Positions 8,884 through 22,999 of a stretch of 64,000 nt of DNA are shown here, piece after piece (position 1 is the stretch's first letter; every line of letters begins with the position of its first letter). Location: positions 3,038,001-3,102,000 of the forward strand of contig NZ_CP010976.1 in NCBI RefSeq assembly GCF_000949425.1, read 5' to 3'. Below the pieces are notes generated by a model. The model did no database searches. It had not been told where the DNA came from and saw nothing but the letters and a program-made list of their open reading frames with translations. The translations under genes were made by a program, and so were the position numbers. Source of the DNA: Paenibacillus sp. IHBB 10380. GTDB taxonomy: Bacteria > Bacillota > Bacilli > Paenibacillales > Paenibacillaceae.

Positions 8884-8916
8884 TAGGCCAAGCCTCGTAA
8901 AATACCATACGTACAT

Positions 8917-8969
8917 AATAATAAAGGCCATCCATAACCTGATGAAGGTATGAACGGCCTTTATTATTT
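8917..8969. terminator. Bidirectional terminator hairpin
   Basis: AATAATAAAGGCC and GGCCTTTATTATT are perfect 13-base arms around a 26-base centre, with A/T-rich outer edges on both strands. It sits between the convergent YneQ-like and transporter genes. Confidence 0.75.
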
Positions 8970-9050
8970 CTAATCTAAATAGATGCTTGCCTAATGGCTG
9001 GATCACCCTCTGTACAATGTTAGACCGTTTTTAATTCTCACCTAAGAGTC

Positions 9051-10268: not shown

Positions 10269-10955
10269 CTATATTTCCTCCATCTCTATTGCTCGTTTTA
10301 ATTCATTTATAAACAGATATACACTTTGGGCTGCCGCTTCACTATCTTGCGCGTATATTGCATCTACCAGTTGATCATGCTTTTTTTGCGGAAGGTTTGC
10401 ATGAAATTGCTTCTTTATAAGAGCAGTAATAGAATCCTGAATGGCTTCAGTAATATGCGCATACAAGTCAATCAACATTCGATTTCCGGCCGATTCTACA
10501 ATGGTCTGATGGAGCTTAATATCAGCGTCGACATACCGTTCTAAATCTCGTACTTCGCTAAACGAATTACATTCCTGTTGATAAAACCGAATTTTCTCTA
10601 AGTCCCCCTCAGTCCGCCTTTCAGCGGATAGCTTCGCAGCTTCTCGCTCTAGAGCATTCCGAACTTCCAGCGTTTCCAATAAGCTCGATTTTTGGACACG
10701 TCGTTGAATAGCCGTACCAAGTGCACTACTAGAAGATACATAAGTACCATCTCCCTGCTTTGTCGTCAGCACTCCGGCATGACACAACGCTTTTATACCT
10801 TCACGCAATGTATTGCGGCTGACATTCAATTCATGGACTAGATCCGGTTCAGGCGGGATTTTTTTTCCTATCGGCCATGTTCCAGATTCAATCAAGGATT
10901 CAATTTGAATAATGACTTGATCAACAAGGGTCAGACGTGTGGTTTTTTGTAGCAT
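10269..10955 (-). CDS. GntR family regulator, FadR subfamily
   Basis: A 228-residue transcription factor. The N-terminal winged helix shows IPPEPDLVHELNVSRNTLRE and the wing GDGTYVSS; the C-terminal all-helical FCD domain shows the metal/ligand-binding pattern DADIKLHQTIVESAGN. FadR-type members respond to small organic acids or metabolites (family knowledge). The gene is immediately followed by the transporter at 9051, which suggests local control. The ligand cannot be told from the sequence. Confidence 0.85.
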   Translation of the reverse strand: MLQKTTRLTLVDQVIIQIESLIESGTWPIGKKIPPEPDLVHELNVSRNTLREGIKALCHAGVLTTKQGDGTYVSSSSALGTAIQRRVQKSSLLETLEVRNALEREAAKLSAERRTEGDLEKIRFYQQECNSFSEVRDLERYVDADIKLHQTIVESAGNRMLIDLYAHITEAIQDSITALIKKQFHANLPQKKHDQLVDAIYAQDSEAAAQSVYLFINELKRAIEMEEI

Positions 10956-11013
10956 TTTTCAAACCTCCAAACATAGGATGACTGTACCAAATGAATTCTA
11001 ACATATTTTAATC

Positions 11014-11112
11014 AATTTTAAAATCATAAGAAAAGATAAAATAGCTAAAGATGCATTTGCTCATGGCAAAGGCATCAAGTTTAAGGATGTTATAAATGAA
11101 TTACTTCATTGA
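11014..11112 (+). pseudogene. C-terminal gene fragment
   Basis: A short open stretch ending AKDAFAHGKGIKFKDVIN and then ELLH, with a TGA at 11110. It reads like the last 25-30 residues of a real protein but has no start codon context and no upstream reading frame. The family is not recognised. Confidence 0.25.
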
Positions 11113-11145
11113 GTTATCATTACTACCTCCGAAAGAATGTATATA

Positions 11146-11473
11146 TCACCGTACGGTTTCTGGTCTAAGCCAAGAAACGTCATACCCCAACTCACTAATA
11201 ATATCAAGTCCATCTTGGAATTCTATTAAGTTTTCTCCAGTCCATCCATTCCTTAAGCCATATAAAATGAAATTTTTAATTATTTTTGTGTAATAACGGA
11301 CTTCCAGTATTAGGATCATCCCATGTGCAAAAAAAGAATGTTAACGTTAACTTTTTCAATCCTTTTATAGATACTTTCAAGGTAATATTACTCGATTTTT
11401 CATTATATTTTTGATTTAGCACATATATATATTCTTTTTCACCTACAATAATTTTTCTTGTCTTTTTCTTCAT
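11146..11473 (-). pseudogene. Small conserved hypothetical protein broken by frameshift
   Basis: ATG 11473 follows AAGGTG and opens MKKKTRKIIVGEKEYIYVLN, continuing to TWDDPNTGSPLLHKNN and a stop. A second frame then continues as NFILYGLRNGWTGENLIEFQ and ends with ELGYDVSWLRPETVR at 11146. The two halves look like one family of about 120-130 residues seen in Bacillales, with a short deletion and frameshift near 11280. Function unknown. The match is by recall and moderate. Confidence 0.5.
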
Positions 11474-11536
11474 AACTAAGCACCTTTTAGATTAGTTTTG
11501 ATTTTTGCAGTATATTAATTATGCATAATTGAAATA

Positions 11537-12418
11537 TCAGATGTTATGCCAATAGAAAGTATAATGTGAATGCTGATGAAAGCCTAATGACTTATAAAAA
11601 GAGTTATCAGAAATAACGTATGCTTTTTTAGCACCTAAGGAGTAGCATCTTTTTAAGGCTTCTAAAACCACCGCTTTACCAAGCCCCTTATGTCGGTACT
11701 CTGGGATTGTACATACAGGTTCAACGTAAGCATAATCAGTTTTTTGACTATACCATAAGCCGCAGTATGCAACATATTCCCCATCTTCATTTTCTGCAAC
11801 AATATGTAGGAATGAATTCAAATTCGTTGCTGACAACATTACTTTTTGCTTATTCATAGTAGTTTCATCAACAGGTACATGTCCTTCGTTGTCAAATGCC
11901 TTCCATAGCAAATTATGATGCTTATATAAGTCCTTTTTTATATCAATATTTTTTACTGTTACACCTTCAGGAGTTATAAAATCAAGGCTAACATTCTCTA
12001 GTGTAAGTTCAAGTATGTTTTCAGTCAGATCATTCTTCACAAATTTATTACTGCGTAATAAGTCTAGAGTGTGAGTATCTGTATCATTCACCGCTATCCC
12101 AAGGCCATTTTCATTACTGAAAGTAGCAATGGCATATTCTAATATATCTTTTTCTAATTCTCCAAACCCTTGTTTAGTTGCAAAAAATGCTTCGCCAAAA
12201 TAATGGTCGTAGGTTGCTATACCTACTAATTCATCATCACAATACCATAATCCAATTTTATCCATTAAGTCTCTGTTAAATTCAGGGTGAAAAAACATCC
12301 ACTCCCATCTTGCCCAATTCCAATTTATATGTCTACGGTCATCTTTTGATAATTCAATCAAAAAATCACAAACTTTATCATAATAAGAATTATCAAAATT
12401 TCTAAATACAATGTTCAT
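11537..12418 (-). CDS. GNAT acetyltransferase (possible first cassette of the array)
   Basis: About 293 residues. The C-terminal half has a full GNAT core: VEPVCTIPEYRHKGLGKAVV is the acetyl-CoA loop (RHKGLG) and AYVISDNSFYKSLGFHQ the closing motif. The N-terminal half (residues 1-140) looks like a second, degenerate GNAT-like unit. GGGGGATTG precedes ATG 12418; the frame is open further upstream without support. It is downstream, in gene sense, of the att1 repeat, so it may be the oldest cassette of the array, although I see no clear att site at its own 3' end. Confidence 0.75.
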   Translation of the reverse strand: MNIVFRNFDNSYYDKVCDFLIELSKDDRRHINWNWARWEWMFFHPEFNRDLMDKIGLWYCDDELVGIATYDHYFGEAFFATKQGFGELEKDILEYAIATFSNENGLGIAVNDTDTHTLDLLRSNKFVKNDLTENILELTLENVSLDFITPEGVTVKNIDIKKDLYKHHNLLWKAFDNEGHVPVDETTMNKQKVMLSATNLNSFLHIVAENEDGEYVAYCGLWYSQKTDYAYVEPVCTIPEYRHKGLGKAVVLEALKRCYSLGAKKAYVISDNSFYKSLGFHQHSHYTFYWHNI

Positions 12419-12603
12419 TTCAATCCCCCATAATATATAAATTATTTTTACGTCACAATGAAATACTATTGCACCCAAATACCTTTAATAAATTATACGC
12501 TATCATTCCAATAGTTGGGTTGGGTGATAAAGATTAATTATAACTGAAGGGATTTCTGTTCCGTTCGCTAGAGTAGATGCTATTATGATGAAAGGGTTTT
12601 ATG

Positions 12604-12720
12604 CTCTTGCGACAATTTCTTATAACATTCGCGCATTCCTGACGTTCAAGCGGCTTAGAAAACAAAAAAACACCGGGAAACCCCGATGTTATGCTATATT
12701 TTATGGGAAGTTAGGTGAAT
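12604..12720 (-). repeat. attC-like site att1
   Basis: Outer boxes are ATAAC at 12622-12626 and GTTAGGTGA at 12710-12718 (ACCTAAC in gene sense, an exact RYYYAAC). The left arm, CGCATTCCTGAC then TTCAAGCGGC, is nearly identical to that of att7. The centre contains a terminator hairpin. It ends the MerR-containing unit. Confidence 0.55.
12660..12692 (-). terminator. Terminator of the MerR/GOLPH3-like unit
   Basis: On the minus strand AACATCGGGG and CCCGGTGTT pair around TTT and are followed by TTTTTTGTTTT. It is nested inside att1. Confidence 0.75.
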
Positions 12721-12750
12721 ATAGATGCCATAATTTTATTCTTATTATGC

Positions 12751-13014
12751 TCATTTATCCGTGTTGAGAGTTTCTTTAATTTGCGGGATAGATAATCCGT
12801 TTGATTTCAGTTCTTTAATTAAAAGAATGCGCGCGACAGTTTCCTCTCTTTTATATTTGCGTGTCAGATTCTCTTCCGCCTGTTCAAAAGGCAGCATACC
12901 CTCTTCTGTATAAAATTTCAGTGTGCTATAGCGAGAATCCGTAAGCCGCACTAATTCACCTATAGATACGATATTAGAGGCCAATATAGTCTCCATGGAA
13001 CGTTGTCTTGACAT
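12751..13014 (-). CDS. MerR-type DNA-binding protein
   Basis: An 87-residue one-domain MerR-like protein: IGELVRLTDSRYSTLKFYTE is the winged helix-turn-helix and RKYKREETVARILLIKELK with GLSIPQIKETL the second helical motif. There is no effector or dimerisation domain beyond this. AAAGGAG precedes the ATG. It follows the gene at 13029 after 14 bases and is surely cotranscribed. It may repress or activate the promoter at 14135-14163, next to the heptamer repeats. Confidence 0.8.
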   Translation of the reverse strand: MSRQRSMETILASNIVSIGELVRLTDSRYSTLKFYTEEGMLPFEQAEENLTRKYKREETVARILLIKELKSNGLSIPQIKETLNTDK

Positions 13015-13028
13015 GATTACCGACTCCT

Positions 13029-14015
13029 TTAAATTGGGAGTCTCGGGAGTAGACGCACACCATGAATTGGCACTCTCCCGTAAATGGCATGCGGAATCGC
13101 TTCGTAAACAATATTATCTATTTTAATTGTCTGCCCTTCCCCTAACACCTTAACCGCATGGCCATTGGACTCTAACCGCATCCTCACATCGTGTAGTCTT
13201 TTTGTTGAATTAGAAAGCATCGCCTCCGTATCAATGAAAACAGATTGCGAACGTTCAAGGATTGGAAATAGAAAATTCAAACCGCTGCCCACGGGTGTCT
13301 TTACTGCCGCTTTTTTCATACGGAGGAATTGTTTTATTGCTAATTCTATTCCGTGATGGATTCGGATTGGATATACTGCTTTTGCCAGTGGAGTACTTTG
13401 ATATAATTTATACATTCTTGCACTCACCTTTTCTAACTCATTCCGCGAAAAAAAATCATGCATACATCCGCTTTCACGCAGGAGCCAAAGCATACAGATT
13501 GTCTCATCTGTTACTGGGCCATCTTCCAGAATTTCTGCTCGAATATTCTCTGTAATCCTTGTATATTCCTGAATATGGCTACGATATTCTTTGATCTCAA
13601 CGCCTGCGGAATGAAAGTACAGGTCGCACCCCAAAAGATGAGGGATTTCTTCAAGTAAACCCATTTCCTTTAGAGAATCTGATACCGCGTGTTCAAACTT
13701 TATTAATTTTCTTTTGGAAAGCATGGAAGCCCTTTTCAGCCACCAATTCAGATCACCCATTACCCCAACATTTTTGTGAACTAAGGGTTTTAAAATCGTT
13801 TCCTGGTAGAGCATTGTATGAGATTGGTTAAGTACATCTTTTTTCAAAACTAATGTATTCTTAGCTTGTGTAAAACCGCTATCTAAGTAGACCTCTAAAA
13901 TAACCGCTGCTGCCATACAACGAAGAGCCACTTTCTTTACATTAGTCATCTCAAGACTTCTCTGCGCATTTAGCGCTATCATTGAAAAGTTTTGTGCTAA
14001 TTTTAGATCTGTCAT
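13029..14015 (-). CDS. GOLPH3/GPP34-like protein
   Basis: 328 residues, cytoplasmic. I do not see a firm family signature, but the spacing of motifs resembles the GOLPH3/VPS74 (GPP34) family: an N-terminal helix KLAQNFSMIALNAQ, AAAVILEVYLDSGF, a central polar helix ending KEMGLLEEI, then ILEDGPVTDETICMLWLLRE. GPP34 proteins bind phosphoinositides in eukaryotes; bacterial ones have no assigned role. The C-terminal 90 residues are extra and include a TPVGSGLNFLFP segment. GGAGAGG precedes the ATG. It is the first gene of a two-gene unit with the MerR gene. Confidence 0.5.
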   Translation of the reverse strand: MTDLKLAQNFSMIALNAQRSLEMTNVKKVALRCMAAAVILEVYLDSGFTQAKNTLVLKKDVLNQSHTMLYQETILKPLVHKNVGVMGDLNWWLKRASMLSKRKLIKFEHAVSDSLKEMGLLEEIPHLLGCDLYFHSAGVEIKEYRSHIQEYTRITENIRAEILEDGPVTDETICMLWLLRESGCMHDFFSRNELEKVSARMYKLYQSTPLAKAVYPIRIHHGIELAIKQFLRMKKAAVKTPVGSGLNFLFPILERSQSVFIDTEAMLSNSTKRLHDVRMRLESNGHAVKVLGEGQTIKIDNIVYEAIPHAIYGRVPIHGVRLLPRLPI

Positions 14016-14086
14016 AGTAATCCTCTCCTACTCATTTTCTTCAAGCGATCTGATGTTTACTTTGTATGAGGAATCATTTGGATCTT

Positions 14087-14135
14087 ACTTACTACTTGCT
14101 ACTTACTACTTACTACTTACTACTTATCACTTAAT
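14087..14135. repeat. Heptamer tandem repeat (ACTTACT)
   Basis: Seven consecutive 7-base units: ACTTACT, ACTTGCT, three ACTTACT, then the degenerate ACTTATC and ACTTAAT. On the coding (minus) strand the unit is AGTAAGT. The block begins at the -10 element of the promoter and fills the start of the leader of the 13029 gene. Confidence 0.85.
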
Positions 14136-14163
14136 ATATAAGTTATTTATTTTGCTTTGTCAA
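14135..14163 (-). promoter_or_regulatory. Sigma-A promoter of the GOLPH3-like/MerR operon
   Basis: On the minus strand TTGACA (14163-14158) and TATATA (14140-14135) are separated by 17 bases. The predicted start of transcription is near 14128, giving a leader of about 113 bases that contains the heptamer repeat. Confidence 0.72.
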
Positions 14164-14325
14164 GTATTTGGCACTTAATAATTTAAATAATTTGCAATAC
14201 TAACCGCAGGTGATGCTGTTTTTGGCCGTATGTACAGTTGAAATGCTCTATAAATAACGATATTACCTTTCTCTGTGAGGGTATGTTTTGGAAAATTTAA
14301 GCTCGATTTCAACGAACTCGCCAAA

Positions 14326-14362
14326 CAAAAAAGACAACGACATAACTGTCATTGTCTTTTAT
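14326..14362. terminator. Bidirectional terminator hairpin
   Basis: AAAAGACAA.GACA pairs with TGTC.TTGTCTTTT around TAAC with one mismatch, and A/T runs lie on both sides. It is downstream of the pantothenate kinase gene. The rest of the 14016-14513 interval holds the promoter, the heptamers and att2; I see no gene there. Confidence 0.65.
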
Positions 14363-14437
14363 TGTTCGGTGGAGCCTAGGAGAATTTGTTATGCTCTCAT
14401 AGGTTGATTACGGGAGAGTGATAAATAAGTTATAATA

Positions 14438-14492
14438 AAACCATGGAGCGGAAGCGACGATGCTGAAAAACATGGTTATGAGATGTCCTAGC
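14438..14492 (-). repeat. attC-like site att2 (one arm clear)
   Basis: The arm CCATGGAGCGGAAGCGACGA followed by GTTATGAGATGTC aligns with the same arm of att4 and att7 (GGAGCG, GCGACGA, GTTAGGTGATGTC). The other arm is not clear. GTTATGAGATGTCCTAGC at 14475-14492 is an inverted near-copy of 15443-15460, the opposite end of the pantothenate kinase unit. Confidence 0.55.
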
Positions 14493-14513
14493 CTTCAAAT
14501 AAACACCCTCAAT

Positions 14514-15314
14514 TTATATTGACATTAATGCTCCAACCGCTCCGCTGTATTCACCATTTCGAACAAACAATGGACTTGCTCCCCTAAGATTTGTATAGTT
14601 AGATACTACTTCTCTGAGAATTTCATTATGGATAAAAGACAATCCTATATAGACTATACTTGTAGTCCCATATGAATCAGCAGCAAGGACGCTTGTAGTT
14701 GCCACTGTTTCCCCAACTAGTCCAATAATGGATGCCAACAAATCTTCTTTTTTTGAAGGTAACTTCAACATCTGTACATTCCCAAAATTACTTGCTGTTA
14801 AATCTCCTGATATTGGAGACTCAGACCCTTCGTAAATATTCCTTACTTTAAGGTCAATATCGTCTCTATTACCTTTTTTCGAAATATTAACTATTTTATT
14901 ATATTCTTCTATGTCAGTTAATAATAAGGATAGTCCCATCATTGTGCCTCCCCCAACACCAGTTCCACCAACACGCACGTGCCTACCTGAATCGAAAAAG
15001 TGGATTGAAGTCCCCGTTCCTACATTCGTTAGTATAAATGATTCCAAAGGTGCTCCCTCGAGATTTAAGAGAAATTGTATTCCCCGACAAGTTGCATCGA
15101 ATTCAACAATATTCTTTGTTTCATGTTTAAGTAATGATTGCAAGTGAGACCCTTTACCACCAGTGAGACAAATTGTTGCTTCTTGAAAATATTCATTAAT
15201 CCATAAAGCTGCAACTCCAAGTTCCATTGAATCAAATACACGGTACTCTATTATGCTTTGGTTCATATATGCAATTTTTATTAACGAACCTCCTGCATCA
15301 ATACCCACTTTCAC
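14514..15314 (-). CDS. coaW: Type II pantothenate kinase
   Basis: Phosphorylates pantothenate, the first step of coenzyme A synthesis. Type II enzymes have the actin/ASKHA fold: MKVGIDAGGSLIKIAY is phosphate loop 1, SFILTNVGTGTSIHF phosphate 2, and VGGTGVGGGTMMGLSLLL the family glycine-rich loop. At 266 residues it has the length of the staphylococcal type enzyme. The start is a GTG at 15314 with a weak site. As cassette cargo it is unusual, since most bacteria have a housekeeping CoaA or CoaX; it may be a resistant isozyme (inference). Its unit ends are a clear inverted pair (15443-15460 and 14475-14492). Confidence 0.88.
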   Translation of the reverse strand: MKVGIDAGGSLIKIAYMNQSIIEYRVFDSMELGVAALWINEYFQEATICLTGGKGSHLQSLLKHETKNIVEFDATCRGIQFLLNLEGAPLESFILTNVGTGTSIHFFDSGRHVRVGGTGVGGGTMMGLSLLLTDIEEYNKIVNISKKGNRDDIDLKVRNIYEGSESPISGDLTASNFGNVQMLKLPSKKEDLLASIIGLVGETVATTSVLAADSYGTTSIVYIGLSFIHNEILREVVSNYTNLRGASPLFVRNGEYSGAVGALMSI

Positions 15315-15440
15315 TATATTCAGTGTTTTTCACTCCTATCATTCATCGCTGGTGTAAGATCTTTAAACTTTATTATTTTTAAGTCAATCCGCTAATCGAG
15401 CATATAGAAAAATTATGATCTTATTTGTTTCGACTTTTTT

Positions 15441-15632
15441 TTGCGGGGATTTCTCATAACGTTTCCGTGTTCACGACGCCTATTCACCTTAAGCTACTGG
15501 AGTCGTGCGATTAGCAAGATCTCGGCTGGTCGCGACGGGTTAGCTGAATGGATGTGGCATACTGCCCTCCGACCAGTGCCATGACCGAGGGCGCACACCC
15601 CGATGCGTGAACATATTGTTATATGATGTCCA
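15441..15632 (-). repeat. attC-like site att3
   Basis: This site shows both boxes well. Outer box: CATAAC at 15455-15460 against GTTATATG at 15618-15625. Inner box: TGTTCACG at 15468-15475 against CGTGAACA at 15606-15613, exact complements, separated from the outer boxes by 7 and 4 bases. The 130-base centre holds partial hairpins. The layout matches the R and L boxes of integron attC sites. Confidence 0.7.
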
Positions 15633-15652
15633 CCACCCCTTAATTTCTAAAT

Positions 15653-16474
15653 TTATATTGGAAATCCAATACAACTGTATTGATGATCTTTATCAAAACC
15701 TAATTTCTCTGCTAATTTTATTGAGCCTTCATTATCCATTGAACAATCCCAATATGCTGTATAACCGTTCTCAATAATTTCGTTTACTACTCTAGCAGCC
15801 AACTGATAACCAATACCCTTCCGTTGGTGTTCAGTTAAGGTTTCAACACCAATTGCATGTGTTTCATTAGTAATAAAACTTGAATAGCAAATACCTACTA
15901 TTTCATCTCCCTCCAAAGCGATACATCCAAACCCTTTCGAAAGAAATTGTTCCTCACTGTCCCAGAACAGATTAATATGACTTTGTAGTAGTTCTTTTCT
16001 TTTAAACTCTTCATTAATGAATTCACGTTTACCTAGGGTAATGAAATTGTACCCATCTATTTCACTTATAATTAGTTTTTCTTTGCTATCAACGTATTTG
16101 TAAACAAATTGCCCCCACCTATTTATTACTCTACTCGAAAAAATATCATCTAGTTTCCATTTTCCCGAATTTCCTGAAGCCTCGAAATAATCTAACCCCA
16201 TACCCCGCATTCTTGGGGCAATAATTGTTGTTATATTTTCATTAATATCTTTCAAAAAATCATGATTATTCTCATTCCCAATTAAATAAAAGCCTTTGAT
16301 CCCCTTACTCCAAACCAATGCTGTTTCAGGAATTAATTTATCATCAATAAATATCCAACCAGGGTTATTCTGCTCAATAATCGATACTATCTCGGGATGA
16401 TTATACCCCGTTTCAATAAGAAATTTGACTTTATAATATTCGTGCTTACTTAATTCAAACATTAATATTCTCAT
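15653..16474 (-). CDS. GNAT acetyltransferase (GNAT_acetyltran type)
   Basis: 273 residues, resembling the GNAT_acetyltran (PF12746) branch found in Bacilli. The C-terminal GNAT core has ETLTEHQRKGIGYQLAARVV as the acetyl-CoA loop and AYWDCSMDNEGSIKLAEKLGF as the closing motif. The N-terminal 130 residues form the family's extra domain. The start may be ATG 16474 or ATG 16462; both follow AAAAGG at imperfect distance. It sits between att3 and att4, both in the cassette family. Substrate unknown. Confidence 0.72.
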   Translation of the reverse strand: MRILMFELSKHEYYKVKFLIETGYNHPEIVSIIEQNNPGWIFIDDKLIPETALVWSKGIKGFYLIGNENNHDFLKDINENITTIIAPRMRGMGLDYFEASGNSGKWKLDDIFSSRVINRWGQFVYKYVDSKEKLIISEIDGYNFITLGKREFINEEFKRKELLQSHINLFWDSEEQFLSKGFGCIALEGDEIVGICYSSFITNETHAIGVETLTEHQRKGIGYQLAARVVNEIIENGYTAYWDCSMDNEGSIKLAEKLGFDKDHQYSCIGFPI

Positions 16475-16496
16475 TCCTTTTCAAGAATAAATTTTC

Positions 16497-16552
16497 TTGG
16501 TGACCAAGGAGCGAATGCGACGATACAGGAATGTTCTGTTAGGTGATGTCCC
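16497..16552 (-). repeat. attC-like site att4 (one arm)
   Basis: GACCAAGGAGCGAATGCGAC at 16502, then CAGGAATG and GTTAGGTGATGTC at 16538-16550. The right arm is near-identical to that of att7 and att2. The partner arm is missing, so the site looks truncated. Confidence 0.6.
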
Positions 16553-16578
16553 CGGCTTCCTGAAGTACTGTCAGATTC

Positions 16579-16989
16579 CTATTTCTTTAATATGTCTCTC
16601 AATTGATTTGCATATTTCATTGGAACTTCGTATCCCTGGCTTGAATTTGATTGATCTACTAATAATCCTTTCATTGATCTATCTGATCCTAGGGACAAAT
16701 GATAATTCTTTGTTGTATTGTTAGAGCTGGTAAATGTCAAATTGTATTCTGCAACGTAATCTAAGTTACCTAACATTTTTATTGCATTATTAATTGCTTC
16801 TTCAAATATCTTAATAGATTGTGTATCATCAAAATATTTACTCTCACATAATTCATCATTATTAGTTTGAAGACAGTCAAGCCTTATAGAGCTAATCGAA
16901 TCATTTGGATCTGTATTATTGTTACATCCTGTAATAAAAACTAAGATCAATAAAATAGCTACTAAATATCTTGTATTAATATTTATCAA
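16579..16989 (-). CDS. Small lipoprotein, cassette gene
   Basis: 136 residues with a signal peptide and lipobox VFITGC followed by NNNTDPNDS, so it should be lipid-anchored on the outer face of the membrane. The mature part has two cysteines (RLDCLQ, ELCESKYF) and a beta-rich look; no known domain. The start is a TTG at 16989 close to GGAAAG. It lies between att5 and att4. Function unknown. Confidence 0.65.
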   Translation of the reverse strand: MININTRYLVAILLILVFITGCNNNTDPNDSISSIRLDCLQTNNDELCESKYFDDTQSIKIFEEAINNAIKMLGNLDYVAEYNLTFTSSNNTTKNYHLSLGSDRSMKGLLVDQSNSSQGYEVPMKYANQLRDILKK

Positions 16990-17007
16990 CTCTTTCCAAT
17001 ATTCTTT

Positions 17008-17030
17008 AGGTGTTATCGGATGCCTCTGCC
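17008..17030 (-). repeat. attC-like site att5 (remnant)
   Basis: Only one outer arm remains: TGTTATCGGATGCCTCTGC at 17011-17029. It is a 16 of 19 inverted match to TATTATCGGATACCCCTGC read on the minus strand from 17600 to 17582, the other end of the same gene unit. The inner boxes are absent. Confidence 0.5.
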
Positions 17031-17039
17031 TCCTGCGAA

Positions 17040-17549
17040 TTACGTATAAAAATAAGTCATTAATTCCTCATCATATCCTTGTCCTTTATATTCCAAGGCG
17101 TTTTTCTCTATGCCATATGTTTCAAATCCTAACTTCATGTAAAGCTCAATTGCTACCCTATTTAAAGTTACAACACAAAGATTTATTTGTTTCAAACCTT
17201 CTAATCCGCTCCCTCTATTAATTACTTCTTCTAGTAGCTCTTTAGCTATTCCTTTGCCTCGGTATTCAGGAGATACATAAACTCCCCAAATTATTCCTTT
17301 ATGGTTAAATTTAATTCCTTGTTCTCTTCTAAATCCAATCATACCTACAATTTGGTTACCTTCTTTAAAAGCTCCCAATATATAATTGTCGCTCTCATTC
17401 ATTATTCTATTTTTAACTTCTGATATCGGAGTTTGTGCCTACACTTCATATGAGGCTCCGAATACTTCTGGATTCATTCTCAATGCTTCCAATCTTAACT
17501 TCCAATATACTTCAACGTCTTCCTCATTTATGTTCTTTATATAATACAT
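17040..17549 (-). pseudogene. GNAT acetyltransferase with in-frame TAG
   Basis: From ATG 17549, after GAGAGGAAA, the frame reads MYYIKNINEEDVEVYWKLRL and continues to GASYEV, then a TAG at 17441-17439, then AQTPISEVKNRIMNESDN and a complete GNAT core (WGVYVSPEYRGKGIAKELL and ELYMKLGFETYGIEKNAL). Both halves are in one frame, so a single base change (such as TCG to TAG) explains it. Translation could restart at ATG 17402 but would lack the first strand. A sequencing error is the alternative. Confidence 0.75.
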
Positions 17550-17573
17550 CTATGAAATTTCCTCTCAATGATA

Positions 17574-17757
17574 TTATTGTCGCAGGGGTATCCGATAATA
17601 TTCTTGAATTCACGACGTCCATGCCCCTCAGATAGCTCTTATCTTAGGGGCATGGATGTGTCCGCCTGATTCCTCTTCTTCGAACTTCATCAGGCGGACC
17701 GAGGTCCGAATAGCCCGAAGCTTAAATACATTGCTATAGGATATCAGCGACTTCTTC
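17574..17757 (-). repeat. attC-like site att6
   Basis: The left arm is CCGATAATATTC then GAATTCACGACG; the right arm is CCCGAAGCTTAAATAC then GCTATAGGATATCAGCG (17733-17749). The centre has two hairpins: ATGCCCCT/AGGGGCAT (17621-17653) around the conserved AGATA/TATCT core, and GTCCGCCTGAT/ATCAGGCGGAC (17660-17698), a perfect 11-base stem. The right end matches the start of the phosphotransferase unit at 18820-18836 in 15 of 17 bases. Confidence 0.65.
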
Positions 17758-17807
17758 GAATATACTTATACAACGCTTTCCTCAACTATTGTGCCTCGTT
17801 TGATCAA

Positions 17808-18722
17808 TTAATTTCTATATTTTTCTTCAATAATTTGGTCTATTTGGCTAATAAAATCTCCCGTGAGTTCTAGTTGTTGAGTAGCAAATTTTAAATCACC
17901 ATAACCTTCAATAGCGTAATCTAAATTACCTAGTGTAGACATCAATATGCGGGCGGTAATGGCAAAACTAAATGCTTTTGGATCAACGACGATGTCTTTA
18001 TTGCTCAATATGTATCTAAAAGTTGGCTCCTTAAATCCATTAAACAAGGCGAGATTACCAACAAATGATGCTAGGTCCCAGTAAGCGGGCATCAATGATA
18101 CATCCTCAAAGTCCGTCCAAATCCAGCCTTCAGAACTTGGTACTAAGTTTCGAGCATGGGCATCTCCATGACACGGTATTAGCAACCTTGTTTCTAATCG
18201 CATTTGTTTATCCACTTTATGAAACAACTTTAGTAATGCTTGTATACGTTGGTCAGAGCGTTTCATCAATCTCGCAGCCGATTGACTAGTCCGTTCCCAA
18301 ACACCAAGCACTGGAAGTTCGTCAGAAAAGTCCTTCATTGCTATGGAGAGGCCACTTACCAGTCCAACGGCTTCACTCGGTGATGGTCGTTGTAATTGTA
18401 TAGGAGGCACATAGTTCCAAAACGTCATCCATGTCCCATCAACGTCGTATGGTCCTGCATCAACAAGATCAGTAGGTAATAAGACGGGAACGTTCTTGAT
18501 TTGAAGGTGACGTGCTACCTCTAATTCTCGATAAAGTCTCTTGTATGCGAGATCCGCTTCTTCCTTTGAAATGACATTGGCTAATCGGGCAACAATTGAA
18601 TGGGGAGCCAAATGAATAATCAGGTTGCCTCCATTACTAAGAACAATAGGTGTAATTTCAGCTAAACCATTTGTCTTAGCAACAAATAACACTTGAGAAA
18701 CTAGTTTATCTATATTTGACAA
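17808..18722 (-). CDS. Aminoglycoside-phosphotransferase-like kinase
   Basis: 304 residues of the APH/choline kinase fold. The catalytic loop is LIPCHGDAHARNLV with the Brenner-type HGDxxxxN, and the metal-binding WTDFEDVS follows. The N-terminal lobe is visible but a lysine-bearing strand is hard to place. Members phosphorylate aminoglycosides, macrolides, homoserine or choline; the substrate cannot be read from the sequence and resistance should not be assumed. The start is a TTG 8 bases after GGAG. Its unit has a clear pair of inverted ends (att7 left, att6 right). Confidence 0.75.
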   Translation of the reverse strand: MSNIDKLVSQVLFVAKTNGLAEITPIVLSNGGNLIIHLAPHSIVARLANVISKEEADLAYKRLYRELEVARHLQIKNVPVLLPTDLVDAGPYDVDGTWMTFWNYVPPIQLQRPSPSEAVGLVSGLSIAMKDFSDELPVLGVWERTSQSAARLMKRSDQRIQALLKLFHKVDKQMRLETRLLIPCHGDAHARNLVPSSEGWIWTDFEDVSLMPAYWDLASFVGNLALFNGFKEPTFRYILSNKDIVVDPKAFSFAITARILMSTLGNLDYAIEGYGDLKFATQQLELTGDFISQIDQIIEEKYRN

Positions 18723-18818
18723 TGCAACATCTCCTTAACTAAAAAAGATATAAAATTAAAACTTTAAAAATAATATCGAAGTGTTAGTGTGGCTATGGAA
18801 CATTTTATTTAGTTTTTT

Positions 18819-19001
18819 TCGCTGATTTCCTATAACGTACCCGCATTCCTGACATTCAAGCGGCATAAGGACCTTAGGATCCAGGTGACTCTGCCACTTA
18901 GCCAGTTGGATGTGTCTCCTGAATTCATTTCTCCGATATCCCTCTTGGCGACCGAGGAGCGTCAGCGACGAAGCGAGAATTCATTGTTAGGTGATGTTGT
19001 C
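18819..19001 (-). repeat. attC-like site att7
   Basis: The left arm is CGCTGATTTCCTATAAC (18820-18836), then CGCATTCCTGAC and TTCAAGCGGC; the right arm is GACCGAGGAGCGTCAGCGAC, then GAATTCATT and GTTAGGTGATGTTGTC (18986). In gene sense the right outer box is ACCTAAC, an exact RYYYAAC. The TAA stop of the kinase gene at 18987 is inside this box. Confidence 0.7.
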
Positions 19002-19649
19002 AGACATCATTGAGTTAACTTCCAAAAATTCTTTAGTTCTCTCAGTATACTGATCCCATAAATAATCTTTGTTTTCAATAATTAATTTGGGGATCTCCCA
19101 TTCTTCAAGCAATGATTTAATAAATTCTTGATTCGGTTTCCAGTCTCTCTCAGCCTCATCTAAGCCTTCTTGAGTATGTAAAGAAGGTATCCATTCTACA
19201 CCTCTTATCTTACCAATCATTTCCCAATTTCTTCTAACCTCTAATTGATAGATATAAATGAGAATAGGGTTCAAACTACTTAATATATCTACTAAAAGGT
19301 TAAATAGTTCCTTTATCTTAAGCTGGTTCATTCCCATGTTATATGCAAAACTTAATGTGTCTTGAAACAATACACTTTCTATAATAATAATTTTCGATTC
19401 ATTCCTATGTAATTCTACAAATCTATTAAACAATTCAACTACTCGATTAAAATAATATTCTGCTTCCTCTTCATCTTTAAAGGTTGTAAATTTACGCTCA
19501 TATATAAATAGTGGGTGGTTTTCAGTTAATTCATGATAAAAAATATTGTTTATTTCTTGTTTAGTCAACTCTTTAGATATCATTTCCGAAAGTATTGATT
19601 TACCAGAACCTGGTATACCATCTACTATGATTAGTTTGTGAGGGTTCAT
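18987..19649 (-). CDS. P-loop NTPase/kinase, cassette gene
   Basis: 220 residues with an N-terminal Walker A, LIIVDGIPGSGKSILSEMI, and a Walker-B-like strand KIIIIESVLF. It belongs to the AAA_33/nucleoside-kinase-like group of small P-loop kinases; the substrate is unknown. It looks like a distant relative of the chromosomal gene at 26381, which starts LIMVEGMPGSGKSTGARL. AAGGAG precedes the ATG. The last codons, ending NIT and TAA, are supplied by the att7 outer box. Confidence 0.7.
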   Translation of the reverse strand: MNPHKLIIVDGIPGSGKSILSEMISKELTKQEINNIFYHELTENHPLFIYERKFTTFKDEEEAEYYFNRVVELFNRFVELHRNESKIIIIESVLFQDTLSFAYNMGMNQLKIKELFNLLVDILSSLNPILIYIYQLEVRRNWEMIGKIRGVEWIPSLHTQEGLDEAERDWKPNQEFIKSLLEEWEIPKLIIENKDYLWDQYTERTKEFLEVNSMMSDNIT

Positions 19650-19711
19650 ATATTTCTCCTTTTTCCGATATTTCCTTTTCCATATATTAGGATCTGACCA
19701 TTTGCCTTTGA

Positions 19712-20746
19712 TTATTCTAAATTATAAATTAATTCATCAACTTTACCTGGTATTTCTGCTGTTCCATTTGATTTATTACTCATGACATGTGCTCTAATAC
19801 TACTCTTTACATATACTGAAGAGACCATCATTGCACCTGGTTCACCACCCATAACATAATACTTAAATATTTCGTCACCAATAATAGTCATCCAAACGCC
19901 GTAACCATAATTTCGAAAATTATCTGTTTCGACTTGTGGCGACAACATTCTTATGGTTGTTTCCTCCTTTAATAATTTATGACCCATAAGTCCTGACCAG
20001 AAGTTATTTAAATCATAAGTTGTAGTATATGCCCCTCCATCCGCTCCACCGATGATAGGCACTGAATATATATTCGTTCTCCATTCTTTGCCCTTTTGAT
20101 CCTCAATGTATCCTATTGCTGTTCGATTAGGTAACTGATCCATTCGGAAGTATCCAGAATCTGTCATATCACACACATCTAAAATATTTCTTTGGATATA
20201 TGCTATAAAATTCATACCACTTATTTGCTCAACAATTAGGCCAAGCAGAATAAAACCAGCATTACAGTATGAGAATCGTTCGCCAGGTTGAAACTTCATT
20301 TCTTTTTCTTGAAACAAGGGTAAAAAGTCTTTAGAAGTAAACACCCGATACATCGGATAATTCTCCCACAACTTTTCATAATCCGTCATGAATTCTTCAT
20401 CAAAATAGTCAGGTATACCCGAAGTGTGGGTGAGTAAATGATGGATTGTAATATCACTACTGAATGTTGGAAATGGAATGTCTATGCACTCTTTAATTAA
20501 TGTGTCAAAAGTAATAAATCCTCGTTCCACAAGTTGGCATATCGCTACTGCTGTAAATATCTTAGAACCTGAAGCCACTGTGAATCTGGTGTCCATTGTG
20601 TTTTTAATTAACTCTCTTCGATCTGCATAATCGTAGCTAGATTTAAAAAGATCATTTCCATCTCTCTTTATTAAGATTGAACCTGAGAATTTAGAGATTG
20701 CTGTTTCAACATCTAGTAATTTTTCTAATTCTTTTGAAATTTTCAT
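19712..20746 (-). CDS. Serine hydrolase of the beta-lactamase/class C fold
   Basis: 344 residues of the PF00144 family. The SxxK motif is VASGSKIFTAVAIC, the YxN motif is FSYCNAGFILL, and HLLTHTSGIPDY is the family signature between them. No signal peptide, so it is probably an intracellular esterase or peptidase rather than a drug-inactivating beta-lactamase. AAGGAAAC precedes the ATG. It is upstream of the P-loop kinase gene with a 62-base gap that has no att-like site, so the two may form one unit or an att site has been lost. Confidence 0.75.
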   Translation of the reverse strand: MKISKELEKLLDVETAISKFSGSILIKRDGNDLFKSSYDYADRRELIKNTMDTRFTVASGSKIFTAVAICQLVERGFITFDTLIKECIDIPFPTFSSDITIHHLLTHTSGIPDYFDEEFMTDYEKLWENYPMYRVFTSKDFLPLFQEKEMKFQPGERFSYCNAGFILLGLIVEQISGMNFIAYIQRNILDVCDMTDSGYFRMDQLPNRTAIGYIEDQKGKEWRTNIYSVPIIGGADGGAYTTTYDLNNFWSGLMGHKLLKEETTIRMLSPQVETDNFRNYGYGVWMTIIGDEIFKYYVMGGEPGAMMVSSVYVKSSIRAHVMSNKSNGTAEIPGKVDELIYNLE

Positions 20747-20769
20747 TTGAAGTTTCCTTTCTATGTTTA

Positions 20770-20812
20770 AAAGTGGTTCCGCAGCAGGAAAACGGTGTTA
20801 GCTAGTGTCACT
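20770..20812 (-). repeat. attC-like site att8 (partial)
   Basis: GTTAGCTAGTGTC at 20797-20809 with GGTTCCGCAG and CAGGAAAACGG before it. The TAA stop of the truncated GNAT gene is inside the box. Its other arm is not recognisable. Confidence 0.4.
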
Positions 20813-21016
20813 GCCTTCTTCGATATTGCTTAATGGTATTCCTAGTTGTTCCTTAGATACGTTGCAACCAGGCAAAAATTCATATATCTCAGGTTGCCAG
20901 GTTAGTGAATGAAACTCATCTATATCATCAATTATGTATTCTCTTAAAATAATGTCCTTATAGTCAATCTTAAAAACGTTTTCTTCCGAAGTGGAATGAA
21001 TATTTGAGTTCATCAT
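20798..21016 (-). pseudogene. Truncated GNAT acetyltransferase
   Basis: 72 residues. KIDYKDIILREYIIDDIDEF and SLTWQPEIYEFLPGCNVSK correspond to the first third of a RimJ/RimL-type GNAT protein; the acetyl-CoA core is absent and the frame ends GSDTS at a TAA inside att8. The unit's 5' end (att9 left arm) does not match its 3' end, unlike intact cassettes, so it may be a chimera made by deletion. Confidence 0.6.
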
Positions 21017-21064
21017 TTATTTCCCTTATTCATATTTGGTAGAATGCCCCACCACTTATAATAA

Positions 21065-21130
21065 TAACAAACCGTCTGAGGTCATGGCTGGTAAAGATTA
21101 ATTATTGCTAAACTATCCTACCGTTAGGTG
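21065..21130 (-). repeat. Possible degenerate att-like site
   Basis: ATAATAACAAACCGTC on the left and CCTACCGTTAGGTGA (to about 21129) on the right could be a further outer-box pair. The segment TAAAGATTAATTAT is shared with 12528-12543, just outside att1. No gene lies between this and att9. Weak. Confidence 0.25.
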
Positions 21131-21175
21131 AAAAGCATCTATGAAATAATGGCTTATAGAGGTTTTTATGATGTT

Positions 21176-21389
21176 CGCTGATTTCCTATAACGTTTGGTA
21201 TTCATGAAACGACCCAGCCTTAGATAACCTTATCTTAGGCTGGGTCATTTGTTGTCTAATATCATTCCATAATTATACATCTGACAACCGAGGGGTGAAA
21301 TCCCCGCTAACCTCACTTCCTGAATTACCTCTAGCGGACCGAAGGACGAATGGCCCGATACGTGAATGCGGTTTTAGGCGAAGGTATTG
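21176..21389 (-). repeat. attC-like site att9
   Basis: The left arm CGCTGATTTCCTATAAC (21176-21192) is identical to that of att7. The inner box is GTATTCATG against CGTGAATGC. The centre has the hairpin GACCCAGC/GCTGGGTC (21211-21246) around the TTAGATAA/TTATCTTA core and a second stem CCGCTA/TAGCGG. The right end GTTTTAGGCGAAGGTATTG (21371-21389) pairs with the start of the next unit and contains the TAA of the 21374 gene. Confidence 0.65.
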
Positions 21390-21886
21390 CCTTCTTTAAT
21401 AACATCGTGTATCTGAGCTCTCAATAAATAATAAGTCTTCTCTTTCTTAAAAATATAATCTTTTGAATAGCATGCATAATATCCATCTAACCTGACATCT
21501 AATTCAAACACTTCATATTGTTCATCTAGTAACTTCTCTATAAGACTAATTAGCTCTCCGATCCTCTTATCTCTTGATACTACTAACATCTTAATCTGTT
21601 TTTTATATTTTTCAGGCTCTCTGTTATATTCACTTAGATAAAAGAACTCCTTAAGTTCTGATTTTAATCGTTCTCTCCAATTGGTAATTTCAATAAGTTT
21701 AAAACAATTCACTTTTTTTGGTGTTGGGAGCCAAGATTTTGCTTCATTATCATAGAATGCTCTTAAGTCAGATAGAAATAAATTATGTATTGGTTGCCCA
21801 ATAAACTCAAAGTATGTCGATACACAACTATCAAAATATTCACATTCGTCTTCTAAAAATATTTGAATTACTTCGATTCTCTCCAT
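21374..21886 (-). CDS. Hypothetical cytoplasmic protein, cassette gene
   Basis: 170 residues, no membrane segment, acidic and rich in aromatic residues and lysine/glutamate. The segment NREPEKYKKQIKMLVVSRDK begins the C-terminal half. I recognise no domain. AAGGAG lies 8 bases before the ATG. The TAA stop is embedded in the att9 outer box, and the unit starts at 21934 in att10; its two ends match in inverted orientation (15 of 17 with a 2-base gap). Function unknown. Confidence 0.65.
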   Translation of the reverse strand: MERIEVIQIFLEDECEYFDSCVSTYFEFIGQPIHNLFLSDLRAFYDNEAKSWLPTPKKVNCFKLIEITNWRERLKSELKEFFYLSEYNREPEKYKKQIKMLVVSRDKRIGELISLIEKLLDEQYEVFELDVRLDGYYACYSKDYIFKKEKTYYLLRAQIHDVIKEGNTFA

Positions 21887-21917
21887 CTATGTTCTCCTTA
21901 CTTAATATTATTCTTTA

Positions 21918-22080
21918 CAATACTTTCGGCTAACGTTTAGAGGTTCACGACGGACGCCCACCTTAGATAGCTCTTATCTTAGGTGGGCGTCTGTGTTGGT
22001 GAGCTTACTTCTTTGTTTCCACTTCTTCCAACCTAGGGCATATGCCCGCAGCGTGAAACTTGTGTTATCTGCTGTTACCG
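21918..22080 (-). repeat. attC-like site att10
   Basis: Left outer arm CAATACTTTCGGCTAAC (21918-21934), inner box GGTTCACGACG against CAGCGTGAAAC, right outer arm GTTATCTGCTGTTACC (22064-22079). The centre hairpin is ACGCCCAC/GTGGGCGT (21954-21990) around CTTAGATA/TATCTTAG. Confidence 0.7.
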
Positions 22081-22110
22081 ACTTCTTCGAGATTCCTCAA
22101 TGTATGTATT

Positions 22111-22425
22111 TTAGTCTTGATTGTTTTGCATTATTACTTCTTGTTCCTGAGTTTTTATCGTTATCTCAAGTCCACCGAATTTTGGGGCAAAGAAATTATA
22201 ACTAACTCCTAACAACATACCTAACAATCCGTATAAACCTATTATAATGAATGGCATCACAATGAAAGGTATGACTGCAACAACAATACTCTGATTTCCT
22301 GAAGCTATCCCAATTATCAAGGATAAAACTCCAATTACAAACATCAATCCCGCTGGAATGCTCGCAATATATAGTGTGGTTTTAAACATACTCTTTACAC
22401 CAAGTGATTTGATTTCGATTTTCAT
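22111..22425 (-). CDS. Small membrane protein, cassette gene
   Basis: 104 residues with two hydrophobic segments (roughly residues 19-41 and 48-72, the second leading into GLYGLLGMLLGVSYNFFAP). The N-terminus MKIEIKSLGVKSMFK is amphipathic. No family recognised with confidence. AAGGAG precedes the ATG. The unit runs from 22488 (start inside att11) to 22064 (end inside att10), and these ends match in inverted orientation in 14 of 16 bases. Confidence 0.65.
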   Translation of the reverse strand: MKIEIKSLGVKSMFKTTLYIASIPAGLMFVIGVLSLIIGIASGNQSIVVAVIPFIVMPFIIIGLYGLLGMLLGVSYNFFAPKFGGLEITIKTQEQEVIMQNNQD

Positions 22426-22472
22426 AACAGTAAGTCTCCTTTAAATGATTTGATTACTATTTTTTAAGTTTT

Positions 22473-22552
22473 GGTAATTGCAGATAACGTTCTGTGTGTT
22501 CCTGAACCCGAAAGGCTGTAGAAATGCTTTGTTATCGGATGTTATTACCACC
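22473..22552 (-). repeat. attC-like site att11 (compact form)
   Basis: The shortest site. The outer boxes GATAAC (22483-22488) and GTTATC (22531-22536) are perfect complements only 54 bases apart end to end, with GTGTTCCTGAACC on the left arm and GAAATGC on the right. This length is within the classical attC range. The right arm GTTATCGGATG is shared with att5. Confidence 0.68.
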
Positions 22553-22687
22553 ATCTATTACTATCAAATGAATCAGTGATATCATTCCCAAGATGTATAT
22601 TCCTCTAAGAAAAACTCCCCCTAGGTTAAATCTATGAAGCATGATCTGTAGTTGAGCATCTGTTATAACCCAATTTGTAAGTACCCC
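22532..22687 (-). pseudogene. C-terminal remnant of a membrane protein ending in att11
   Basis: An open frame of 51 codons reads NWVITDAQLQIMLHRFNLGG, then FLRGIYILGMISLIHLIVI, then GGNNIR and TAA. A TAG blocks the frame just upstream and no start codon is suitable, so the 5' part is lost. The stop lies inside the att11 outer box, as with the kinase, the 21374 gene and the truncated GNAT gene, so this is probably the rightmost visible cassette. Confidence 0.5.
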
Positions 22688-22748
22688 CTATTCATATCGT
22701 GAGCTTTCATATCTTGATAGTCAGTTTGAGCTTAGAGCATCATTCAAC

Positions 22749-22793
22749 AATAAAGGCACTCCAACCGAATTAAGGTATGGATTGCCTTTATTA
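22749..22793 (-). terminator. Terminator after ywbE
   Basis: AATAAAGGCA.TCCA pairs with TGGA.TGCCTTTATT around 14 bases; A/T-rich flanks on both strands. Confidence 0.75.
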
Positions 22794-22804
22794 TTATAAA
22801 TTGT

Positions 22805-22999
22805 TTACTGAATGATAGTCTGCACGCGTCCAACTTGACCGCTAGTTAATCTAACCTTAATGCCATGCGGATGCTTCGGTGAGTTGGTCAATAGATCCTT
22901 AACGATGCCTCTCGTTAACTTACCTGTCGGTTGATCCTGCTTCAATACAATATCTACCTCTAGCCCCGGACGAATATTAGCGCGAATTTGTCCATTCAT
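22805..22999 (-). CDS. ywbE: YwbE family protein
   Basis: 64-residue conserved protein of the YwbE (DUF2196) family, identified by MNGQIRANIRPGLEVDIVLK and GKLTRGIVKDLLTNSP, with a KOW-like beta-barrel feel and the end VGRVQTIIQ. Function unknown; probably binds nucleic acid (inference from the fold-like pattern). It is the first chromosomal-type gene to the right of the cassette array, closed by its own terminator. Confidence 0.85.
   Translation of the reverse strand: MNGQIRANIRPGLEVDIVLKQDQPTGKLTRGIVKDLLTNSPKHPHGIKVRLTSGQVGRVQTIIQ

Follow-up and report, generated by a model that had tools for sequence, protein, structure and literature searches.

An integron-like gene-cassette array in Paenibacillus sp. 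IHBB 10380 and the putative recombinase of related arrays

A stretch of 64,000 nucleotides of the Paenibacillus sp. IHBB 10380 chromosome (NZ_CP010976.1, positions 3,038,001 to 3,102,000; the window) holds, between positions 11537 and 22687, a row of short genes separated by palindromic spacers. A reading of the sequence alone had proposed that this is a mobile cassette array of the integron kind, possibly of a new branch. Integrons are described in a passage of PMC9024848 as extremely rare in Bacillota (Firmicutes), with one complete integron (in Limnochorda) and a few CALIN (clusters of attC lacking integrase), an absence that is called intriguing there. What kind of element is the array, and which enzyme would move its genes? 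Comparison with related genomes indicates that the interval is very probably an integron-like cassette array without its own integrase, partly decayed, which belongs to a chromosomal gene-capture system of Paenibacillaceae that works like an integron via another integrase.

Direct reading of the window gave 13 open reading frames (ORFs) of at least 60 amino acids on the minus strand between 11537 and 22425, and the spacers sit 3' of the genes in the direction of transcription. Sites were searched with models of the two outer arms (R' and R''), built from 349 R' and 339 R'' arms from other genomes with no sequence of the window genome, at a threshold of 10 bits. Seven R' and eight R'' arms were found in the window, all 15 on the minus strand and within the interval (12.6–22.6 kb); arms of at least 10 bits were absent from 20 block-shuffled windows (1.28 Mb). 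Three extra R'' boxes were recognized by eye or with a weaker model that includes the window genome. Six sites are two-armed by model alone and seven when the eye-read box at 12706–12725 is counted, which with four one-armed sites gives 11 (Table 1). The sequence-only reading was thus right about the one-strand gene row, about the eleven spacers of one family and about their boxes (R'' nnATAAC, ACCTAAC in some; L'' TTCACG; L' CGTGAA; R' GTTAT). The spacer family was also sought in related genomes, as that reading had suggested: of 60 genomes searched by BLAST with one window site, 22 contain copies.

The recombinase beside related arrays

The integrase gene lies outside the window. The BLAST search with that window site also revealed a dense cluster of sites at 2613–2661 kb of the window genome (5.79 Mb), where a larger array of 57 kb (about 2610.8–2668.1 kb; 58 R' and 48 R'' arms) lies roughly 380 kb from the window array. 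Its start lies immediately after a tyrosine recombinase gene of the same orientation, the genome's best match to TIGR02249 (integron integrase); there are 25 TIGR02249 matches in this genome, none of them between 2.67 and 3.53 Mb of contig C1. For a protein scan of the 57 kb array, ORFs crossing the border of the fetched stretch or shorter than 210 nt were excluded. The 48 cassette proteins include six GNAT acetyltransferases (PF00583), two each of the NUDIX, APH and R2K ATP-grasp families and one ParE toxin, with others matching single families. The PADLOC models NsnA, PD-T4-2_A, SAVED-associated effector and SduA each matched one of the 48.

In the core motifs, the catalytic residues (R, K, H-x-x-R, H and Y) are unchanged across seven of seven recombinases, and PF00589 matches four of four with E values of 2e-40 or better. 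One explanation would be a canonical integron or CALIN, that is, ordinary attC cassettes moved by an ordinary IntI elsewhere in the genome. The order of the R and L boxes, the GTT/AAC cores, the cassette logic and an attI-like site are integron-like, and for each of the four recombinases scanned TIGR02249 ranks in the top two of the NCBIfam models, yet scores below its cut-off; NF040815 ('site-specific tyrosine recombinase/integron integrase', XerA-like) gives these four 213–225 bits against a cut-off of 220. An IntI above the TIGR02249 cut-off was found in none of 100 genus genomes, in the window genome likewise not, and in one of 299 sampled Bacillota (L189, G244:C122; 375 bits). The IntI-specific insert is absent: the spacing from KGxKDR to RHSFA is 58–64 residues in 62 of 62 measurable recombinases, compared with 103 in IntI1 and in a Bacillota IntI. 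For this measurement 80 loci were fetched, of which 71 had an open frame of at least 240 residues and 62 of these had both motifs; among the other rows, TnpF, two IS91-associated recombinases, two IntI, two Xer-like proteins and L040 lack one motif and fall outside the measure. Residues 180–237 of IntI4 (chain 2a3v) are unmatched in the comparison with the recombinase. In a 44-row tree the four IntI form one clade apart from 35 rows, with three Xer-like proteins outside; IntI is joined with two IS91-associated recombinases with moderate support (89/79), beside the other 35 rows (90/87). A quick 90-row tree had placed IntI within the insert-less rows at an open fork; the 44-row tree differs and such nesting is not claimed. 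Because the IntI-specific insert is a defining feature and is lacking here, the system was not filed in the IntI class. A canonical integron is very unlikely.

The N-terminal 80–100 residues are additional and share FPYxxxxVxxIKxIxGRxWxxxxKxWxIP across phyla. Against Pfam HARP, 18 of the 30 sequences chosen (not all) for alignment A5 matched at E 0.1 or better (best 6e-6), and the best PDB match of the N-terminal profile is the HARP domain of SMARCAL1 (4o66; E 7.9e-5). An AlphaFold model has a mean pLDDT of 76.6 and a pTM of 0.46. HARP is named among junction-specific DNA-binding domains in a passage of PMC4666394, and it may be the HARP-like domain, instead of the IntI-specific insert, that reads the folded site.

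Is this recombinase the enzyme of the arrays? Among 100 genus genomes, sites were found in 60 and the recombinase (E 1e-70 or better) in 26; these site counts are lower bounds because only 39 candidates per genome were scored. All 26 genomes with the recombinase carry sites, compared with 34 of 74 without it (p 1.8e-7). Named genomes were scanned for the recombinase using the best 80 of 571 confirmed stretches. In Paenibacillus, Cohnella and Saccharibacillus, sites follow downstream on the same strand in 22 of 25 loci, the other three having under ~1 kb of DNA behind the recombinase; the R' motif occurs 110 times in sense and once in antisense in 168 kb downstream, compared with twice, in sense, in 243 kb upstream. 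Eleven loci (ten genomes) of the P. amylolyticus/pabuli/xylanilyticus group, selected by eye, were compared behind the integrase gene. In all 11 the sequence is kept up to ...ATTAGAT|GTTA, with 94% identity over the last 20 nt before GTTA and 68% further upstream (gaps disallowed); beyond +12 of GTTA identity is ~30%, as for random sequence, and the sequences vary by locus. The first cassettes equal their own R'' at all three variable bases in ten of the 11 loci. In two Saccharibacillus loci the junction is preceded by direct repeats of a GTTCGTGAATA-like motif, two in one locus and three in the other. Judged by the conserved sequence, the integrase gene has an attI-like site beside it, as in integrons. 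Host XerC/XerD or an IS91-associated recombinase might instead move the cassettes, with the neighbouring integrase a mere passenger. Plasmid relatives of the integrase do include recombinases beside IS91-family transposases, and a passage of PMC4792948 reports on a phage for which host XerCD acts on a folded site. The position of the integrase directly upstream of the array, its co-occurrence with sites in 26 of 26 genomes, the conserved sequence immediately behind its gene and the resemblance of the Saccharibacillus repeats to the site's own arm all speak against a passenger, and we consider this explanation highly improbable.

Outside Paenibacillaceae, 55 loci were examined with a generic hairpin pattern (TAAC, 7-bp stem, GTTA), for which strand says little because the pattern is nearly its own reverse complement. 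It occurs 45 times in 209 kb downstream of the recombinase compared with three times in 418 kb upstream, at least once downstream in 22 of the 55 loci; the stricter R' motif was found nine times downstream in sense, three times downstream in antisense and once upstream. Of 19 units between consecutive detected sites in other phyla, eight match at their own end (a test described below) compared with one for the next unit. These eight come from Fusibacter, a Ca. Altarchaeum metagenome-assembled genome (MAG; archaeal), Nitrospirae, Dehalococcoidia, Spirochaetes and Flavobacterium, several of them MAGs in which binning errors are possible. A blastn search of plasmid and phage collections with one window site gave no match. 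In viral contigs the exact R' pattern occurs once in each of two contigs, and one recombinase contig has one R' arm; a second arm at 12 bits was found in none of 81 loci scanned.

Several separate observations were made on recombinase loci. In Fusibacter sp. 3D3 (L137:11400–15000) several near-identical units of ~380 bp, apparently without a long ORF, stand one after another behind the recombinase. Plasmid relatives of the recombinase directly adjoin IS91-family transposase genes in L191, L192 and L193 and a resistance gene in L190. An Escherichia coli plasmid gene annotated 'integron integrase' (L155:2953–3855; NZ_CP080262.1, 110399–111301) encodes 300 residues compared with 337 for IntI1 of L188; it aligns to the insert-less query almost gap-free and may lack the IntI-specific insert. 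In the relative G016, three further recombinase matches (open frames of 290–297 residues) at C1:4597–4615 kb and 27–28 kb lie on the strand opposite to nearby sites, and the contig ends appear to repeat an array segment.

Cassettes as units and the predicted fold of their sites

Paired sites (348) were collected from 12 stretches of seven genus genomes and from 22 named-genome loci. On the sense strand the consensus of the R''/L'' arm is ACATCnnATAACAyyRyATTCACGCTKCGG and that of the L'/R' arm is GGACGTCGTGAATRC(n)nnAACGTTATnnGAAAT (255 and 278 arms for the two arm types). Imperfect palindromes with R''/L''/L'/R' boxes and AAC/GTT cores thus stand after the genes, as in integrons, although the window sites are partly one-armed. 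The median cassette is 764 bp long, and the longest ORF lies in sense in 306 of 360 cassettes.

Two example sites of 106 nt, folded with DNA parameters, gave z values of −5.2 to −6.1 on either strand. The fold comprises an R box, a spacer of 4 versus 7–8 nt, an L box of 8 bp and three small stems; the L box has no bulge, and the asymmetry lies in the spacer and in four unpaired nucleotides inside L''. Of the short sites, 60 were listed (one with a run of N), 41 entered alignment A2 and 24 alignment A3. With the structure of one of the 24 sites imposed unchanged on all of them, 93.4% of cells pair compared with 89.8% after shuffling, double changes occur in 12 of 34 pairs compared with 7.6, and covariation is 0.167 compared with 0.098 (0 of 500); with the partner shifted by 1–3 columns, pairing falls to 28–37%. 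Within the R box, the positions that often stay unpaired are the two n positions, which would be expected were R'' and the next R' to stem from different cassettes. An RNAalifold model of sites of mixed length had given three pairs only and was replaced by this fixed structure of one length class.

If a cassette was once circular, its R'' must equal its own start and not that of the next cassette. The comparison covered 289 of the 348 paired sites; in each of these the start could be identified and no second R'' intervened. Agreement of R'' with the head of its own cassette was 95, 87 and 90% at the three variable core bases, and with the head of the next cassette 54, 40 and 43%; all three bases agree with the own head in 226 of 289 and with the next head in 29 of 289 (Fisher p 8e-67).

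Among 361 cassettes of the same stretches and loci there are 41 homologous pairs (at least 70% identity), none of which involves a window cassette. Comparable neighbours were available on both sides in 24 pairs, on one side in 15 and on none in two. In the clearest pairs identity between one GTTA and the next, 3' site included, is 98–100%, and it mostly falls to background level just outside. One clear pair of G016 lies at two loci 2.4 Mb apart, and a pair within the 57 kb array (array positions 18715 and 28302) is 81% alike in the 60 nt upstream. A cassette of the window genome and one of G004 are 96.7% identical over 788 nt, a comparison that ends short of the 3' sites. On the evidence of these pairs, cassettes move as units from GTT to GTT, with exceptions.

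These results bear on two readings that leave out a cassette. The palindromes could serve to end transcription, or be structured 3' elements, within an operon-like cluster of fixed gene order: the sites lie a median of 37 nt after the stop codon, stable folding is possible and the genes are on one strand. A homologous neighbour is kept in none of the 39 pairs, so that gene order is not fixed; homology stops at GTTA and not at the gene; and a pairing of ends over ~0.8 kb would be useless to a terminator, which leaves this reading hardly credible. Independent MITE-like (miniature inverted-repeat transposable element) or REP-like (repetitive extragenic palindromic) elements inserted behind genes would account for many copies per genome, a patchy distribution and the hairpin form, but gene and site, and not the site alone, move together in 12 of the 14 pairs for which the two 3' sites were located, the arms carry core bases specific to each cassette, and the arms in arrays are oriented with the genes (third search round: 262 of 263 R'' arms and all 279 R' arms in sense); the idea can practically be dismissed.

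The preferred reading, an integron-like system with its own recombinase, can be put as follows. Each cassette would consist of one gene followed by its own 3' site, of which one strand would fold to a hairpin with an R box, an asymmetric unpaired spacer, an L box of 8 bp and a three-armed tip. The tyrosine recombinase encoded just upstream of the array would cut at the GTTA core and free the cassette as a circle, in which the core would be R'' joined to the cassette's own 5' end; circles would then be inserted at the attI-like site directly behind the recombinase's own gene. Unit limits, own-end pairing, insertion point and co-occurrence with the recombinase have been established here by comparison of genomes, and the single-strand chemistry and the choice of the strand used we infer.

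The proposal of a mobile cassette array is borne out by the GTTA limits of the units, the match of the core to the own end, the attI-like point, the recombinase upstream of related arrays and a locus that is empty in two relatives (see below). Spacers inserted independently with target duplications, or a fixed gene order with spacers as mere terminators, had been named as observations that would speak against mobility; for the related arrays, both are contradicted by the cassette pairs and the own-end comparison. The suggestion of a new branch gains support from a recombinase that lacks the IntI-specific insert and falls outside the IntI clade.

The window array and its locus

Genes matching window positions 8581–8883 and 22805–22999 adjoin in both relatives, G008 and G016, with gaps of 183 and 101 bp, respectively. 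In G008 an MFS/GntR gene pair that is 71% identical lies on another contig. By this comparison the block between the two positions in the window is an insertion.

A Pfam scan of the 13 ORFs gave three GNAT acetyltransferases, a MerR-type protein, a Fumble family protein, an APH family protein, a P-loop protein (below the cut-off) and a PF00144 protein; five were without a match. The ORF at 13029–14015 and the MerR-type ORF next to it probably form one unit. A short tandem repeat of three copies with 14-base spacing lies at 14086–14134, upstream of the 13029–14015 gene. Rfam at the gathering score gave no match in the window. Covariance model R2, built from the named genomes, gave seven window matches below E 1, four in the array and three elsewhere. 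The array in the window is a side array in partial decay.

Table 1. Features of the block in the window (positions in the 64,000-nucleotide stretch; arms by model unless stated otherwise)
Feature	Positions	Strand	Evidence	Arms
Block of MFS and GntR genes and cassette array, 13.9 kb	8884..22804		Absent at locus in relatives G008, G016	
GNAT acetyltransferase cassette ORF	11537..12478	-	PF00583, E 1.3e-12	
attC-like site	12615..12725	-	R' by model (18.8 bits), R'' GTTAGGTGAA by eye	R' 12615-12647; R'' 12706-12725 (by eye)
MerR-type helix-turn-helix cassette ORF	12751..13014	-	PF13411, E 1.2e-14	
ORF without Pfam match	13029..14015	-	Pfam scan	
Lone R'' box GTTATGAGATGT; matches own cassette head GTTATGAGAAAT at 15449	14458..14486	-	11.1 bits, model including window genome	R'' 14458-14486
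Fumble family (type II pantothenate kinase-like) cassette ORF	14514..15314	-	PF03630, E 6.1e-31	
attC-like site, two-armed, best preserved in window	15449..15629	-	28.3 + 28.7 bits	R' 15449-15480; R'' 15598-15629
GNAT acetyltransferase cassette ORF	15653..16474	-	PF12746, E 1.3e-32	
Lone R'' arm	16517..16549	-	16.6 bits	R'' 16517-16549
Cassette ORF without Pfam match	16579..16989	-	Pfam scan	
R'' box GTTATCGGATGC; matches own head ATTATCGGATAC at 17591-17621	17000..17025	-	By eye	R'' 17000-17025
GNAT acetyltransferase cassette ORF	17040..17402	-	PF00583, E 6.5e-20	
attC-like site, two-armed	17591..17742	-	Arm models	R' 17601-17620; R'' 17713-17741
APH-family phosphotransferase cassette ORF	17808..18722	-	PF01636, E 1.5e-6	
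attC-like site, two-armed; BLAST query for relatives	18825..18997	-	Arm models	R' 18825-18854; R'' 18965-18997
P-loop NTPase cassette ORF	18987..19649	-	Every Pfam match below cut-off	
Serine hydrolase cassette ORF, PF00144 family	19712..20746	-	E 1.1e-43	
Lone R'' arm	20778..20803	-	16.4 bits	R'' 20778-20803
Cassette ORF of 72 amino acids without Pfam match	20798..21016	-	Pfam scan	
attC-like site, two-armed	21181..21383	-	Arm models	R' 21181-21208; R'' 21352-21383
Cassette ORF without Pfam match	21374..21886	-	Pfam scan	
attC-like site, two-armed	21924..22075	-	Best window match of covariance model R2, E 0.0072	R' 21924-21952; R'' 22043-22075
Cassette ORF without Pfam match	22111..22425	-	Pfam scan	
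Short attC-like site, two-armed	22477..22542	-	Head GTTATCTGCAAT matches R'' GTTATCTGCTGT of same cassette	R' 22477-22510; R'' 22515-22542

Weight of the evidence, known systems and meaning

A number of observations weigh against the preferred reading. In the window, the array has no recombinase, four of the 11 sites are one-armed, only four of seven cassettes with a readable head match their own R'', model R2 scores the sites poorly (best E 0.0072), and the one window site that was folded (22477–22545) is not clearly more stable than its shuffles (z −0.45 and −1.12). The integrase of the same genome, at the 57 kb array, is split in two frames, and stop codons lie within the matched stretch in 12 of the 26 best genus matches, so that many recombinase copies look broken; the 34 genomes that carry sites and in which the integrase was not detected belong here too. 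In the cassette comparisons, the 60 nt upstream of GTTA are 81–84% identical in three of 28 close pairs (95th percentile of the background, 75), the 3' site is not common to both members in two of 14 pairs with both 3' sites located, and R'' agrees with the next head slightly more often than with shuffled heads (1.36 versus 1.17 of three bases). The longest ORF is antisense in 41 of 360 cassettes, 13 of 360 have no ORF, and further pair types in the 24 folded sites do not exceed shuffles (19 versus 21.1). The recombinase lacks a domain that is said to be essential in IntI, and its similarity to HARP is weak for single proteins. A LexA-type box (GAAC-n4-GTTC) was found in none of 25 loci within 450 bp upstream of the matched region; an SOS link is stated for all integrons in a passage of PMC4792948. 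All of the evidence is comparative, and no recombination event has been observed.

A Vibrio-type superintegron comprises IntI, attI and attC, with a long array of single-gene cassettes in one direction. The arrays described here are alike in their one-direction, single-gene cassettes, their R''-L''...L'-R' sites with GTT/AAC cores, the two ends of a cassette, which agree only once it is a circle, and an attI-like point beside the integrase; their contents include acetyltransferases, a ParE toxin and defence-gene families. They differ in an integrase without the IntI-specific insert and with a HARP-like N-terminal domain, in an R box extended to GTTATnnGAAAT, in an L box that lacks an extra-helical base (106-nt sites) and in a three-armed tip. 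The Treponema integron has the same gene direction as here, and its enzyme is reported in a passage of PMC3607928 as IntI.

CALIN are defined as clusters of attC lacking integrase (PMC9024848) and recognized by at least two attC sites less than 4 kb apart (PMC9668308). The window, with sites at 12.6–22.5 kb and cassettes but no integrase nearby, corresponds to this; because the window sites are of a new type, the label applies by function only. It differs from a CALIN in that its chromosome also carries a related array next to a recombinase, an enzyme other than IntI. An 'integron-like subgroup' of recombinases with insert-less members is described in PMC8138268, where the insert is called essential for integron function; the passages on this subgroup link no cassette arrays to such members. 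IS91-associated tyrosine recombinases of plasmids are 35–39% identical to the query over the core (three regions read), and the one of three that could be measured is insert-less, with a spacing of 62; they differ in having 286–302 residues, no N-terminal domain and an IS91-family transposase beside them. Archaeal IntI are defined by the IntI domain in a passage of PMC9668308, and the role of this extra domain is treated in PMC4792948; passages of PMC8618304, PMC2426708 and PMC9371921 were also used for comparison. Arrays of this kind in Paenibacillus, or HARP-bearing integrases, are not described among the open-licence PubMed Central matches listed, a scope that leaves aside preprints and subscription journals.

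Together these results suggest that bacteria have a second kind of gene-capture system, one that has been overlooked. We lean, with some reserve, towards a wider view in which a second deep integron lineage exists beside IntI: a HARP-domain tyrosine recombinase without the IntI insert would capture and shuffle folded-DNA cassettes, widespread in Paenibacillaceae and present also in Nitrospirae, Spirochaetes, Bacteroidota, Dehalococcoidia and at least one archaeal MAG, and would have escaped notice because integron finders rely on the IntI domain. The hairpin would be read by the HARP-like domain, which in fork-remodelling enzymes serves as a junction-binding module, so that the IntI insert would be one of two solutions and no prerequisite for the capture of cassettes. 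If this is true, there is an alternative to the domain regarded as indispensable for integron recombination, and the origin of integrons becomes testable with two related enzymes that have different add-on domains and the same kind of folded cassette. The arrays may also be a source of DNA-assembly tools. For Paenibacillaceae, it would mean that a common bacterial family has arrays of up to 57 kb which search tools skip by design; since known defence-gene families are among the cassettes, these arrays would be a reservoir of defence and adaptive genes.

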